The translations under genes were made by a program, and so were the position numbers. The notes under the pieces are model-generated. The model had not been told where the DNA came from, made no database searches, and saw nothing but the letters and a program-made list of their open reading frames with translations. A DNA stretch of 20,371 bases from Anaerolineae bacterium. GTDB taxonomy: Bacteria; Chloroflexota; Anaerolineae; B4-G1. The stretch is taken from positions 1-20,371 of the forward strand of contig JADHWW010000031.1 of the NCBI GenBank assembly GCA_016783285.1, given 5' to 3'. This document shows positions 6,838-20,018 of the stretch, piece after piece. Each line of letters opens with the position of its first letter. The stretch's first letter is position 1.

Positions 6838-7217
6838 CTAACCTCCGCCACCCCCATTCTGGACCGTGTGGGCCGCGACCTGACCGCATTAGCCCAGGCG
6901 GGCGAACTCGACCCGCTCATCGGGCGCAAAAAGGAGTTGCGCCAACTGGTGCGCACGCTGGTTCGTAAGAAGAAGAACAACCCCGTCCTGGTCGGCCCGG
7001 CCGGCGTGGGCAAGACTGCCATTGTCGAGGGGCTGGCGACGAGTACATCGAGCAGGATGCCGCCCTGGAGCGCCGCTTCCAGCCAGTGTGGGTGGGGGAG
7101 ACTACCCTGAGCGCGGGGTTAGTCGTCACCGCCCGCACCGTCGCTGAGGTATTGGCCGGGTGGGTCGGTGTGCCGGCCGAGGGCTTGTTGGACACTGCAA
7201 GCACAAGGAGTGACTGA
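6838..7217 (+). pseudogene. Remnant of a ClpA/ClpB/ClpC-type AAA+ ATPase gene
   Basis: Frame 1 encodes [20 protein letters not shown], then [12 protein letters not shown] and [15 protein letters not shown], the start of the first Clp nucleotide-binding domain with an intact Walker A. The sequence then jumps to frame 3 at about 7038, giving [19 protein letters not shown]. That segment normally lies about 85-90 residues further on, so Walker B and sensor 1 are gone. It jumps again, in frame, to VTARTVAEVLAGWVGVPAEG, the segment just before the second ATPase domain. The frame stops at TGA 7215-7217. The N-terminal Clp repeat domain is missing where the 177-bp element ends. Multiple deletions and a frame change make this a clear pseudogene. 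Confidence 0.8.
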
Positions 7218-7241
7218 GGAGACAATGGGAGGTAAAGTCCT

Positions 7242-7463
7242 ATGAATAGCCAAATGGCCAGGGAATTTCGAGAGCGCTGGCAGGCGGTTGCAGTCGCCGA
7301 AGCCACGGAGCAAAGAGAGGTCTCCATCGCCCTGCGTTGGCAGCAAACGAACGCCATCTTCCGGCTGGCAGTGGGCCTGGGATTCCCCCTGGTAGAAGAG
7401 AATAGCGAGGAAATCGAAGCCGTGCGCCGCCGCTGGGCATTGCTCAAAGGAACCGCGACATGA
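7242..7463 (+). CDS. Small 73-aa protein, putative partner/antitoxin of the downstream nucleotidyltransferase
   Basis: The ATG at 7242 has a strong GGGAGG (7227-7232) nine nt upstream. The 73-residue product is charged and probably helical (MAREFRERWQAVAVAEATEQ, then LRWQQTNAIFRLAVGLG). It has no signal peptide or membrane segment, and I do not recognise a named family. Its TGA overlaps the ATG of the next gene (ATGA, 7460-7463), which implies translational coupling. A small gene overlapping a minimal nucleotidyltransferase is typical of toxin-antitoxin and HEPN/MNT-like pairs, so a neutralising partner role is plausible but unproven. The protein shows no DNA-binding motif. Confidence 0.7.
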   Translation: MNSQMAREFRERWQAVAVAEATEQREVSIALRWQQTNAIFRLAVGLGFPLVEENSEEIEAVRRRWALLKGTAT

Positions 7464-8038
7464 TACATCCACAGAATATCACTCCTATGTTGGCTCCCCT
7501 GGTGTCTGTACAGCGACTGCTGGCACGATTCGATGACCAGGGAATCGTTATTGGTGGCGTCGCAGCCAGCCTGTTGGGTAAACCGCGCCTGACCGCCGAC
7601 GTGGATGCTATGTTCCTTCTGTCCACCGAGGAGTTGCCAATCTTGATGGAGGCGGCGGCCCAGGAAGGATTAGTGCCGCGCATCACCGACGCCCAGGACT
7701 TTGCCCGTCGTCATCGGGTCATACTTCTACGCCACCAGGAAAGCGGCATTAACGTTGACATTTCCCTCGGCGTGTTGCCATTCGAGGTAGAAGCCGTTGA
7801 GCGTAGCATCGTCTATCAGGTTGGTTCCTTTACCATCCGCCTGCCTACCCCGGAAGACCTGATCATTTTCAAGGCTGTCGCCCACCGACCCCAGGACTTG
7901 TTGGACATTCAGGCGATCATTGAAAGTCACACCGACCTGGACAGGGAACGCATTGAACGATGGGTCTGTGAGTTCGCCCGGCTCCTGGAGATGCCAGAGA
8001 TGTGGGACGACATTGCATCCTGGCTGCAACAAGGGTAG
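7460..8038 (+). CDS. Minimal nucleotidyltransferase, AbiEii/MenA-like
   Basis: The 192-aa product has the core of the DNA polymerase beta-like nucleotidyltransferase fold: IGGVAASLLG (Gly-Gly at 32-33), TADVDAMF (Asp47 and Asp49) and NVDISLG (third acidic residue, Asp100). IRLPTPEDLIIFKAVAHRPQ and DLLDIQAIIE follow, as in AbiEii/AbiGii-type toxins and related stand-alone enzymes. All three metal ligands are present, so it is probably active and would transfer a nucleotide to RNA or protein. It overlaps the preceding 73-aa gene by 4 bp, has no clear ribosome-binding site of its own, and is likely translated by coupling. Location beside two toxin/chaperone gene remnants suggests an accessory patch. 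It could also be a resistance-type nucleotidyltransferase with a small-molecule substrate. Confidence 0.75.
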   Translation: MIHPQNITPMLAPLVSVQRLLARFDDQGIVIGGVAASLLGKPRLTADVDAMFLLSTEELPILMEAAAQEGLVPRITDAQDFARRHRVILLRHQESGINVDISLGVLPFEVEAVERSIVYQVGSFTIRLPTPEDLIIFKAVAHRPQDLLDIQAIIESHTDLDRERIERWVCEFARLLEMPEMWDDIASWLQQG

Positions 8039-8180
8039 ACAGTAGGAGCGACACATTCCTCGGATCACCCTTCGATCACAACGGGCGGTCTGCGAAATAC
8101 GGAATCTCACTCAGCGAGACGCTCTGCTGGGAATGCGTCGCCCCTACTTGCCCAAAATCGCGTTTTGCTCCATACTTAGG

Positions 8181-8287
8181 GGCACATGGTATCTTCTCAA
8201 TAAACTGGGGTTTGACAGACGAGAAACCGGGTTTTTTCTGGAAAACCCGGTTTCTTTCCCCGAATTTTTGAGAAGATACGGCACATG
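8181..8287. repeat. 8-bp target-site duplication flanking the 91-bp MITE
   Basis: GGCACATG occurs at 8181-8188 and again at 8280-8287. Each copy directly abuts the terminal inverted repeats of the enclosed element. This is the expected footprint of a transposase that makes 8-bp staggered cuts. Confidence 0.8.
8189..8279. mobile_element. 91-bp MITE (copy A) with perfect 12-bp terminal inverted repeats
   Basis: The ends GTATCTTCTCAA (8189-8200) and TTGAGAAGATAC (8268-8279) are perfect 12-bp inverted repeats. Inside, AGAAACCGGGTTTT (8222-8235) and its complement (8242-8255) form a 14-bp perfect stem with a TTCTGG loop. There is no coding capacity, so it must have been moved by a transposase encoded elsewhere. 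It lies in the 8039-8314 gap, 35 bp before the GH31 start codon. The rest of that gap shows no gene. The hairpin could affect GH31 expression or end transcription from the nucleotidyltransferase gene. Confidence 0.8.
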
Positions 8288-8314: not shown

Positions 8315-10651
8315 ATGGAGACCATAACCTCTGCACCTGGCTACGAGCGCGTGGCGCGCTGGCGCGACTTCGAGCGTACCTCCCACGGCGTGCGGTTGCG
8401 CGCCGAAACCGACGCTGGTACCCCGGTCGAGGTCGCGTTGGACCTCGTCCTGCCCGAGGTGGTGCGGCTGCGCATAAGCCCGGAGGTACTCGGCCCGGCC
8501 CGTGGTCACCTTCTCGTGCCGGAGGAGTGGGAGGCTGTCCCGTTCCTGGTTTCGGAGGCCCCCGACCGGCTGCACCTGGCGACCAGCCTCCTGCACATAG
8601 ACGTGGCTCGTGACCCCTGGGCCATCCGTCTTTTCGACAGGGCCGGGGACCTGATCTGCTGCGAGGCGAGCGAGCGCACGCCCGGCGGCTCGAACAGGGT
8701 TCGCGAAGTTCCCACCTCGACCGACCTGGGCTTCTTGCGCGACCCTGAAAGCGGGCGTATAACGGTGCACGAGACCTTCAGGTTGGCCCCCGATGAGGAC
8801 CTGTACGGCCTGGGCGAGCAGTTCGCCCGCATCAACCGGGTCGGCCAGCGCTTCGAACTCTGGGCCACCAACGCCTACGGCATCTCCCATCGCGCCACCT
8901 ACAAGAACATCCCCTTTCTGTGGTCCACCCGTGGCTACGGCCTGTTCGTCAATTCCACCTTCCGCGTCACCTTCGATCTGGCTACCGTCTCCCTGCTGAC
9001 CCACGGTTTCACCCACTGGGGGCCGGAACTGGATGTCTTCCTCATCTATGGCCCCGAGCCGGCCGCCATCTTACGCCGTTACTGCGATCTCACCGGCTAT
9101 GCGCCCGCCCCGCCCCGCTGGTCCTTCGGATTGTGGATGTCCCGCTGCGGCTACCAGAACCGCGCCGAAGTCGAGCAAGTGGCCGAGGGGCTGCGGACCC
9201 ACGACATCCCCTGCGATGTGATTCACGTTGATCCCTGGTGGATGGGTGATCCGATCAACTGGTGCGACCTGCGGTGGGACGAATCCCGCTTCCCCGACCC
9301 GGCTGGGATGATCGAGGGGTTGCGTCAGCGTGGGCTGCGGCTCTGCTTGTGGGAGAACCCCTACGTGGTCGAAAGCGCGTCTATCTTCGAGGAGGGACGC
9401 CAGCGGCGCTACTTCGTCAGAGACGAGCACGGTGAACCGGCCATGATTCGCGTCTGGGCCGAGGTCGTTCCTCCGGTGGCGGTCGTGGACTTCACCAACC
9501 CAGAGGCGGTCGCCTGGTGGCAGTCGCTCCACCGCCCGCTGCTGGAGCAGGGCGTGGCTGTCTTCGAGACCGATTTCGGTGAGGCTGCGCCGGAGGACGG
9601 CGTCTACCACAACGGGATGAGTGGGCAGGAGGTGCACAATCTCTACCCGCTCCTGTACAACCGCGCCGTCTTTGAGGTGACCAAGGAGGTGACCGGGCGC
9701 GGTCTGGTGTGGGCCCGCTCGGGATGGGCTGGCTCGCAGCGTACCCCCATCTGCTGGGGCGGCGATCCTTTCACCGATTTCCCCCACATGGCCAACCAAC
9801 TCCGCGCTGCGCTCAGCATTGGCCTTTCGGGGGTGCCGTTCTACAGCCACGACATCGGCGGCTTCGTCGGCCAACCAGACGCCGAGTTGTACGTCCGCTG
9901 GGCGCAGTTTGGCCTCTTCAGTTCGCACAGCCGTTGCCACGGCGCCACCCCCCGCGAGCCGTGGGAGTTCGGCGAGGAGGCTGAGACCATCTTCCGTCGC
10001 TACGCTAAGCTGCGCTACCGGTTGCTGCCCTACATTTATTCCACCGCCATACAGGCCACGCAGACAGGGCTCCCGGTGGTACGGGCGCTGGTGCTCAAGT
10101 ACCGTAACGATCCCAACGTGCGCCACCTGGATAGCGAGTACCTCTTCGGCGATAGTTTCCTGGTCGCGCCGGTTCTGGAGCGGGGAGCGCAACGGCGTAT
10201 GCTCTACCTGCCAGTCGGTGAGTGGGTGGACTACTGGAGCCGGGAGGTCTACGAGGGGCCGATCTGGCTCAACTACCCAGCGCCTCTGGAGATCCTGCCC
10301 CTCTTTGTCCGGCGCGGCGCGATCATCCCGATGGGCCCGGAGGTGGACCACACCGGTCAGTCCGCTGGCGCGGGTCTTGTCTTCGACATATACACTGCCG
10401 ACGGCGGGCGTTTCACTCTATACGATGAGGATGCACCGCCGGTCGAGATCTCATACACCGCCGACGAGACCGCGCTGCGTTTGGCCGTCGGCCTGCTATC
10501 CGCCCCGCCGGTGGTGGTCCTCAACGACTTCCCTTCTGCCCGGCGCGTGACCGTCAATCGCCGCTCGCATGATCGCTGGCGAGCCGAGGGTGGCGGGCTG
10601 GTCATCGAACTGACCGAGCCAGGTGAGGCGGAGATCATCGTGTGGCGTTAG
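8315..10651 (+). CDS. yicI: Glycoside hydrolase family 31, YicI-type alpha-xylosidase/alpha-glucosidase
   Basis: The 778-aa product has the GH31 architecture: an N-terminal beta-sandwich (about 1-240, ending in the EDLYGLGEQF block), a TIM barrel (about 250-590) and C-terminal beta domains. The nucleophile is Asp420 in VFETDFGE and the acid/base is Asp484 in ICWGGD. Their positions nearly equal Asp416 and Asp482 of E. coli YicI (772 aa). FGLWMSRCGYQ, FPDPAGMIEGL, SGVPFYSHDIGGF and LFSSHSRCHG also match YicI. The enzyme should release alpha-xylose or alpha-glucose from non-reducing ends. No signal peptide is visible, so it acts in the cytoplasm on imported oligosaccharides. ATG 8315 has AGAGGGG (8301-8307); the in-frame ATG at 8285 overlaps a MITE target duplication and lacks one. 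A PHP gene follows 40 bp later. Confidence 0.92.
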   Translation: METITSAPGYERVARWRDFERTSHGVRLRAETDAGTPVEVALDLVLPEVVRLRISPEVLGPARGHLLVPEEWEAVPFLVSEAPDRLHLATSLLHIDVARDPWAIRLFDRAGDLICCEASERTPGGSNRVREVPTSTDLGFLRDPESGRITVHETFRLAPDEDLYGLGEQFARINRVGQRFELWATNAYGISHRATYKNIPFLWSTRGYGLFVNSTFRVTFDLATVSLLTHGFTHWGPELDVFLIYGPEPAAILRRYCDLTGYAPAPPRWSFGLWMSRCGYQNRAEVEQVAEGLRTHDIPCDVIHVDPWWMGDPINWCDLRWDESRFPDPAGMIEGLRQRGLRLCLWENPYVVESASIFEEGRQRRYFVRDEHGEPAMIRVWAEVVPPVAVVDFTNPEAVAWWQSLHRPLLEQGVAVFETDFGEAAPEDGVYHNGMSGQEVHNLYPLLYNRAVFEVTKEVTGRGLVWARSGWAGSQRTPICWGGDPFTDFPHMANQLRAALSIGLSGVPFYSHDIGGFVGQPDAELYVRWAQFGLFSSHSRCHGATPREPWEFGEEAETIFRRYAKLRYRLLPYIYSTAIQATQTGLPVVRALVLKYRNDPNVRHLDSEYLFGDSFLVAPVLERGAQRRMLYLPVGEWVDYWSREVYEGPIWLNYPAPLEILPLFVRRGAIIPMGPEVDHTGQSAGAGLVFDIYTADGGRFTLYDEDAPPVEISYTADETALRLAVGLLSAPPVVVLNDFPSARRVTVNRRSHDRWRAEGGGLVIELTEPGEAEIIVWR

Positions 10652-14534: not shown

Positions 14535-14563
14535 ATTATACACCATAAGAGTGAAACGTGAAA
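14535..14563 (-). promoter_or_regulatory. Promoter of the protease-cupin operon
   Basis: On the minus strand, TTTCAC (14563-14558) and a perfect TATAAT (14540-14535) are 17 nt apart, with the start near 14528 and a leader of about 25 nt. The -35 box falls inside a short GTGAAAC repeat, so the repeat may supply part of this promoter. Confidence 0.55.
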
Positions 14564-14569
14564 CGTGAA
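14551..14569. repeat. Short ACGTGAA/GTGAAAC repeat
   Basis: GTGAAACGTGAAACGTGAA is an 8-bp-period direct repeat in the gap between the Mut7-C and protease genes. The same core occurs in the inverted pair at 19911-19984, so it belongs to a dispersed intergenic repeat family. Confidence 0.6.
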
Positions 14570-14580
14570 GTGTTGGGCAG

Positions 14581-16651: not shown

Positions 16652-16742
16652 GTATCATCTCAATATGTAGGGGCGAACCCTCGTGGTCGCCCTCTTGGGC
16701 AGGTACAAGGCCTGCCCCTACCCCGATTTATTGAGAAGTTGT
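16652..16742. mobile_element. 91-bp MITE relative (copy B), degenerate ends
   Basis: The element has the same 91-bp length as copy A, and its outer 22 bp align base for base with it: 17 of 22 match on the left (GTATCATCTCAA) and 17 of 22 on the right (TTGAGAAGTTGT). GGGG at positions 19-22 and CCCC at 70-73 are kept. The centre is unrelated: GTAGGGGC (16667-16674) pairs with GCCCCTAC (16714-16721). No target duplication remains (GCCGGGCT left, CATGAGTG right), so this copy is older or recombined. It occupies most of the gap after the Amt-like gene. Confidence 0.65.
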
Positions 16743-16775: not shown

Positions 16776-16802
16776 GTAGGTCGGAATGGCATTCCGACTT
16801 AC
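16776..16802. repeat. 27-bp near-perfect palindrome
   Basis: GTCGGAATG (16780-16788) and CATTCCGAC (16790-16798) are a perfect inverted repeat around one base. With GTAG and TTAC outside, the arms extend to 13 bp with one mismatch. The near-zero loop makes it a poor terminator, and it looks like a dispersed palindromic repeat. Confidence 0.55.
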
Positions 16803-19910: not shown

Positions 19911-19984
19911 ACGTGAAACGTAAAATGTGAGAACGTGGGGCAACTGCCCTCAAATCATCACGTTTCACGCATTACGTTTCACGT
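19911..19984. repeat. Inverted pair of ACGTGAAACGT repeats
   Basis: The left arm (19911-19936) starts ACGTGAAACGT and ends GAACGT. The right arm (19960-19984) starts ACGTTTCACG and ends CGTTTCACGT. Their complement matches over about 25 bp with a few differences, leaving a 23-nt centre. Further related units (CATCACGCAATACGCA) continue to 20006, at the Shine-Dalgarno of the next gene. Confidence 0.6.
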
Positions 19985-20018
19985 CTCTCGCATCACGCAA
20001 TACGCAAGGAGGTCACCT

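Follow-up and report, generated by a model that had tools for sequence, protein, structure and literature searches.

Within the IS66 family, the transposition mechanism of which has been termed insufficiently characterized, ISDge4 of Deinococcus geothermalis belongs to the ISBst12 group and possesses one open reading frame (ORF) of 449 amino acids, an 8-bp repeat and the end GTAACTGCTCAGCA (available text of PMC12898284). GTAG-tagged REP palindromes have been reported from Chloroflexi (available text of PMC3733652). Among MITEs, Nezha, QMITE2 and Chunjie are described in a review (available text of PMC10969869), the main text of which contains neither IS66 nor Chloroflex-. The element considered here resembles these three MITEs, as it is short and non-coding and has inverted ends, target duplications and strong folding, but differs from them in that one set of ends encloses many unrelated palindromic cores. 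No account of this Chloroflexota MITE family was found in the available text of the literature searched, which lay mostly outside subscription journals.

A 91-bp MITE upstream of a GH31 gene

The window, i.e., the whole stretch of 20,371 nucleotides that was analyzed, contains the element and its flanking duplications at positions 8181 – 8287, with the following features:

8181 – 8188, no strand: left copy of the 8-bp target duplication GGCACATG; 8-bp duplications are general among related elements
8189 – 8279, no strand: 91-bp MITE with IS66-type ends, the same ends occurring in at least 120 genome-contig loci and in complete insertion sequences
8189 – 8210, plus strand: left end, a perfect 12-bp inverted repeat GTATCTTCTCAA followed by TAAACTGGGG; TAA...GGGG is common to the ends of the complete insertion sequences
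8222 – 8255, no strand: palindromic core AGAAACCGGGTTTT-N6-AAAACCCGGTTTCT, which belongs to a separate repeat
8258 – 8279, minus strand: right end CCCC...TTGAGAAGATAC, the terminal 12 bp being perfect
8280 – 8287, no strand: right copy of the 8-bp target duplication GGCACATG, the last three bases of which are an in-frame ATG

The 91-bp element is delimited by perfect 12-bp inverted ends (GTATCTTCTCAA at 8189 – 8200 and its exact complement at 8268 – 8279), which reach 22 bp at 82%. It lacks coding capacity and is flanked by GGCACATG on both sides, which are features of a MITE. Inside, two perfect 14-bp hairpin arms were found (8222 – 8235 and 8242 – 8255). The original prediction of an intact MITE with perfect ends, an 8-bp duplication and a 14-bp internal hairpin thus held in all its parts. 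Folding of the 107 bp was compared with that of dinucleotide shuffles, resulting in z values of -7.4 and -8.1, one per strand, and an Rfam search of the window gave no match at the gathering threshold. Taken together with the family and the insertion sequences described below, the element is very probably a non-autonomous MITE mobilized in trans by a DDE transposase of the IS66 type.

The element belongs to a family. An exact scan of genome contigs for two 11-bp ends, 53 – 83 bp apart, retrieved at least 120 loci; among the matches listed, 113 out of 120 had a record title that names Chloroflexi, Chloroflexota or a member of this phylum, the seven others being L012, L045, L056, L081, L082, L097 and L115. 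Among these seven, no target duplication was seen for L081 and L115. Exact 8-bp duplications surround positions 483 – 579 of L056 (a Candidatus Altarchaeum contig) and positions 2649 – 2739 of L012 (a Desulfobulbaceae contig), and these two copies may reflect either transfer outside the Chloroflexota or misbinned contigs. Perfect duplications are usual in the family, as they were exact in 72 of the 123 elements with enough flanking sequence and had one mismatch in 15 more, compared with 0.6 exact and 0.2 one-mismatch cases per round of a shuffled pairing control. In a later set of exact-ended elements, unselected for duplications, at most one mismatch occurred in the 8-bp duplication of 135 out of 194. 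The reading as a MITE was hence borne out by hundreds of copies with 8-bp duplications in related genomes.

In each of the 17 host genomes, which were selected as carriers of the element, between 5 and 210 copies of the 12-bp end were counted, versus 0 to 2 of its reversed pattern; because such a family exists, a chance origin of the window element is excluded. In broader samples, a 14-bp end was present in 17 of the 400 genomes sampled from the phylum, and exact-ended elements were present in 30 of 396 genomes of one class and five of 48 genomes of one order; among the matches listed for the class and order samples, none was to the reversed-pattern control. The copies that had been expected in related genomes from a search with the 12-bp ends were numerous; for instance, G002 contains 78 exact-ended MITEs, with many near-identical copies that carry exact duplications. 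Furthermore, the insertions avoid long open frames, as 18 of 50 insertion sites were located in open frames of at least 200 codons versus 399 of 500 random sites. Contigs L181, L182 and L183 (1 – 141) of G028 start with exactly 141 bp finishing in the family end, and in L184 of the same genome the family end lies 141 bp short of the end of the contig, a pattern expected if multi-copy elements had interrupted the assembly.

A repeat search of the window revealed a second, decayed element that had been missed in the first reading:

16652 – 16742, no strand: decayed 91-bp relative with ends GTATCATCTCAA and TTGAGAAGTTGT and flanks GCCGGGCT and CATGAGTG
16667 – 16721, no strand: core of this second element, a GTAG...CTAC double hairpin, the commonest core type

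No target duplication is left around positions 16652 – 16742 (GCCGGGCT versus CATGAGTG), and the cores of the two 91-bp elements of the window are quite different. By eye, a free-standing GTAG-tagged palindrome, GTAGGTCGGAATGGCATTCCGACTTAC, was seen at 16776 – 16802, 33 bp past the second MITE.

Full-length insertion sequences that share the ends

A MITE without a transposase implies a helper elsewhere, and complete insertion sequences that could fill this role were found in related genomes. They measure 1.76 – 1.87 kb, contain a single ORF and have ends identical or almost identical to those of the MITE. An exact 8-bp duplication flanks four of the seven complete Chloroflexota copies, namely L202 in G002 (1866 bp, perfect 12-bp ends, duplication AGTGACAT, intact ORF of 553 amino acids), L310 (1835 bp, perfect 12-bp ends, duplication TGCAGATG, an in-frame TAG stop), L311 (1757 bp, duplication CGCAAAAC) and L312 (1757 bp, duplication GACCGGGA). 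The 12-bp ends of L202 and L310 are identical to those of the window element, so that full-length insertion sequences of the kind foreseen, with the same inverted repeats and 8-bp duplications, do exist; L311 and L312 both end in GTATCTTATCAA. L310, L311 and L312 belong to the order of the nearest relatives of the window that were compared. The remaining copies, L179, L200 and L201, are complete and have matching ends, and no target duplication was found around them. L179 was retrieved by a search of the phylum as an end pair 1790 bp apart around an ORF of 559 amino acids; one ORF of 549 – 572 amino acids fills each of L179, L200, L201 and L202.

The assignment to IS66 relies on the Pfam model DDE_Tnp_IS66 (PF03050), which the L179 transposase passed with 49.4 bits (cut-off, 23.1 bits); for the NCBIfam IS66 model NF033517, its 122.6 bits stayed below the cut-off of 180 bits. 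Candidate DDE residues (D233, D360/D361 and E474) are invariant across four aligned transposases. Ends beginning with GTAA are a general feature of the IS66 family. The starting bases found here were GTAT in the Chloroflexota and Nostoc copies and GTAAC in the Allochromatium relative. ISDge4 is similar in that GTAACTGCTCAGCA and GTATCTTCTCAA agree at 9 of 12 positions and that both systems combine a single ORF with an 8-bp duplication, and the Pfam IS66 domain of that family is also present in the Chloroflexota transposase. It differs in that the Chloroflexota ends start with GTAT instead of GTAA and that their transposases count 553 – 572 instead of 449 amino acids (available text of PMC12898284). 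Further relatives occur on plasmids of Nostoc sp. C052, Nostoc sp. UHCC 0870 and Allochromatium tepidum (1741 – 1793 bp, ends such as GTATCCGCTCAG, GTATCGGCTCAA and GTAACTTCTCAATAAG), where they carry only the annotation "transposase"; their amino acid identities with the L202 transposase are 53.5%, 52.0% and 31.7%, respectively. Exact 8-bp duplications and similar ends were present in three of the four plasmid relatives fetched (two from Nostoc and one from Allochromatium), and no duplication was seen for the fourth, from Rhizobium.

Other candidates for a helper or a longer element were rejected. Transposases with a DDE_Tnp_1 domain (PF01609) were considered at 30 loci in nine genomes and showed no convincing flanking end pair; a weak end pair of 1422 bp around a PF01609 gene in L152 had poor ends and two duplication mismatches. 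Unpaired ends in low-copy genomes were considered as ends of long elements, yet 14 of 20 had a partner at 90 – 188 bp and none had a distant one. An end pair of 2461 bp in G016 proved to be two separate MITEs.

Of 23 genomes, 11 yielded homologues of the L179 transposase. None was found in the 12 others, which are mostly incomplete metagenome assemblies and include G006 with its 210 end sites. This absence, together with the second window element, which has no duplication and has partly lost its ends, would suit MITEs whose mobilization by an IS66-type transposase lies far in the past and that are now immobile relics. Such a state is unlikely, however, given that G002 contains, beside its many near-identical MITE copies bearing exact duplications, a helper with an intact frame, perfect ends and a duplication. 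Mobilization in trans by an IS66-type transposase stays the preferred explanation.

Exchangeable cores between constant ends

The interior of the elements was compared in a set of 154 distinct elements. Exact-ended elements were admitted up to a length of 160 bp, and one or two mismatches in the ends were tolerated only where the duplication was exact or differed at a single position, a selection that biases duplication counts within this set upward. About 22 bp of the end are shared, while the elements fell into 32 unrelated core groups without any common 12-mer. Representatives of the core groups folded more strongly than dinucleotide shuffles, with z below -2 in 24 of 32 cases and below -3 in 19. 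The length is 90 – 94 bp in 104 of the 154 elements, and the modal length is 90 – 93 bp in 12 of the 24 core groups within the scanned range, some of which may share ancestry. A helical periodicity of length (10.5 bp) was suggestive, failed a stricter test and is considered unproven: hand-picked lengths gave 0 out of 3000 null draws, a systematic test of 38 core groups gave 87 out of 4000 for modal lengths and 596 out of 4000 without the 89 – 94 peak, and all group-length pairs, a non-independent list, gave 2 out of 4000.

Comparison of the 154 cores with the bodies of four insertion sequences yielded a single match of 16 bp; therefore, most cores do not stem from the helpers compared. In one case, the interior does derive from such a source, as a 269-bp element of G186 contains the end of a relative of the transposase gene (L223, 74% identical to residues 2 – 44) and is, judged by its sequence, a true internal deletion derivative. 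This element would fit an origin of the cores by internal decay of various helper insertion sequences, as opposed to a separate acquisition of palindromes. As a general origin of the cores, this is improbable, both because of the single 16-bp match and because core repeats exist outside the ends, i.e., for four of the 32 core groups in a local sample and for the window core in most places sampled.

Indeed, the window core is a repeat in its own right. Its pattern AGAAACCNGGTTTYT occurs in 12 of 18 genomes; strand matches number 717 for G012, 169 for G001 and 59 for G419, many sites being self-complementary and so counted on both strands. The reversed AGAAACCNGGTTTYT control matched in G016 alone (two strand matches). 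In G017, the AGAAACCGGGTTTTT core of the window is enclosed by GGCTCAACGCGG ends, which we take to be ISL3-like, in 121-bp MITEs with exact 8-bp duplications (L293, L294 and L295 (98 – 220)); two further G017 elements with GGCTCAACGCGG ends have two and six duplication mismatches. At 25 of 33 distinct sampled places, the window core is free, meaning that neither an IS66-type end (up to one mismatch) nor an ISL3-like end (up to two mismatches) lies within 150 bp. One such free copy (L298 in G419) is identical to the window core at 32 of 34 positions.

A GTAG-tagged hairpin was present in eight of the 32 core groups, including the largest one, and in about 1.5% of shuffled cores, a control that does not preserve hairpins. 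In this respect, the cores resemble the GTAG-tagged REPs reported from Chloroflexi (available text of PMC3733652), although the core of the window element is untagged, the second element having the tag, and although the palindromes here are enclosed by transposon ends. That the whole unit would be a REP-like or structural RNA palindrome kept for a function in mRNA stability or termination, with an outer stem posing as "ends", is highly improbable: the strong hairpin of the whole element on both strands, the folding of most cores and the location of the sites mostly outside long open frames would agree with it, but it is contradicted by the exact 8-bp target duplications, by full-length insertion sequences that share the ends and by the unrelated cores within constant ends, and the window contains no Rfam family.

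The GH31 locus, a proposed mechanism and its meaning

The gene downstream of the element and its upstream region have the following features:

8148 – 8176, plus strand: probable promoter TTGCCC-17-CATACT, seen by eye; the upstream block is conserved in the orthologous locus of G420 (TTGCCC-17-CATAAT)
8315 – 10651, plus strand: GH31 glycoside hydrolase gene (PF01055, PF13802 and PF21365), start by homology

The ATG at 8315 lies 35 bp past the end of the element, as originally proposed, and this start is backed by the homologues P0003, P0005 and P0006, which begin with METIT. A longer ORF is possible from the in-frame ATG at 8285, within the right target duplication, and P0001 (96% identical GH31) is predicted from this longer start. 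At its threshold, a promoter consensus scan did not call any promoter, the conserved TTGCCC-17-CATACT block included. Just upstream of the element, an AbiEii/DUF6036-like nucleotidyltransferase gene (7460 – 8038) is faced by an ORF on the opposite strand (6917 – 7468) without Pfam match, and these two could be a toxin-antitoxin pair. Elsewhere in the window, GTGAAACGTGAA-type repeats occur between genes at 14553 – 14575 and 19911 – 19987, in direct and inverted order.

A comparison of Mfd in a sample of 400 genomes indicated G209 as the nearest relative of the window (67%). Within the order of G209, GH31 orthologues were found in only two of 48 genomes, namely G420 (74%) and G419 (69%); matches elsewhere were weak (31 – 50% in 23 genomes and 39 – 48% in 400 genomes). 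The G420 locus aligns to the window at 8145 – 8174 (90% of 30 bp) and resumes from 8313, the spacing between the aligned blocks being 71 bp in G420 versus 138 bp in the window. The element is absent from this orthologous locus, in which two end-like matches are unpaired and both fall inside the GH31 match. The comparison with a relative that had been called for therefore yielded a locus without the element, and the alignment shows an insertion after the split between the window and G420, which does not by itself imply recent movement. L250 of G419 was dropped as an empty site, as it does not align with the promoter region.

Mechanistically, the IS66-type transposase would bind an end of about 22 bp (GTATCTTCTCAATAA...GGGG), pair both ends of the 91-bp element and join them to a target opened by staggered cuts 8 bp apart. 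As nothing but the ends would be required, the middle would be free to vary, and it would usually be taken by one of the palindromic repeats of the host itself. As to the exchange of cores, a mobile palindrome may have inserted into an existing MITE, two ends may have been placed around a palindrome, or elements may have recombined, all of which fit. In the window, the element would have landed just past the conserved promoter, at about position +6 of the GH31 transcript, and the GH31 mRNA would start with a long hairpin, leaving promoter, ribosome site and coding sequence intact.

The element as a MITE and its helper as an IS66-like insertion sequence are of kinds already known; the new part is the architecture. 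Exchangeable palindromic cores within constant IS66-type ends are not described in the available text of PMC10969869, PMC9769881, PMC3733652 or the other papers found. MITEs are usually viewed as shrunken copies of one transposon, whereas here at least 32 unrelated cores, mostly palindromes, share one set of ends. As a tentative proposal, somewhat short of an even chance, IS66-type ends might act as a natural cassette, in which any short DNA between two 22-bp ends becomes mobile, host palindromes are captured repeatedly and handed on among MITE families that use different transposases, and length is perhaps tuned to whole helix turns. One core type, which occurs on its own as well as within IS66-type and within ISL3-like ends, provides a testable case for such core capture. 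In addition, with its 91 bp and ends of about 22 bp, the element offers a minimal substrate for the study of the IS66 family, and a widespread repeat of the Chloroflexota is tied to a definite transposase.
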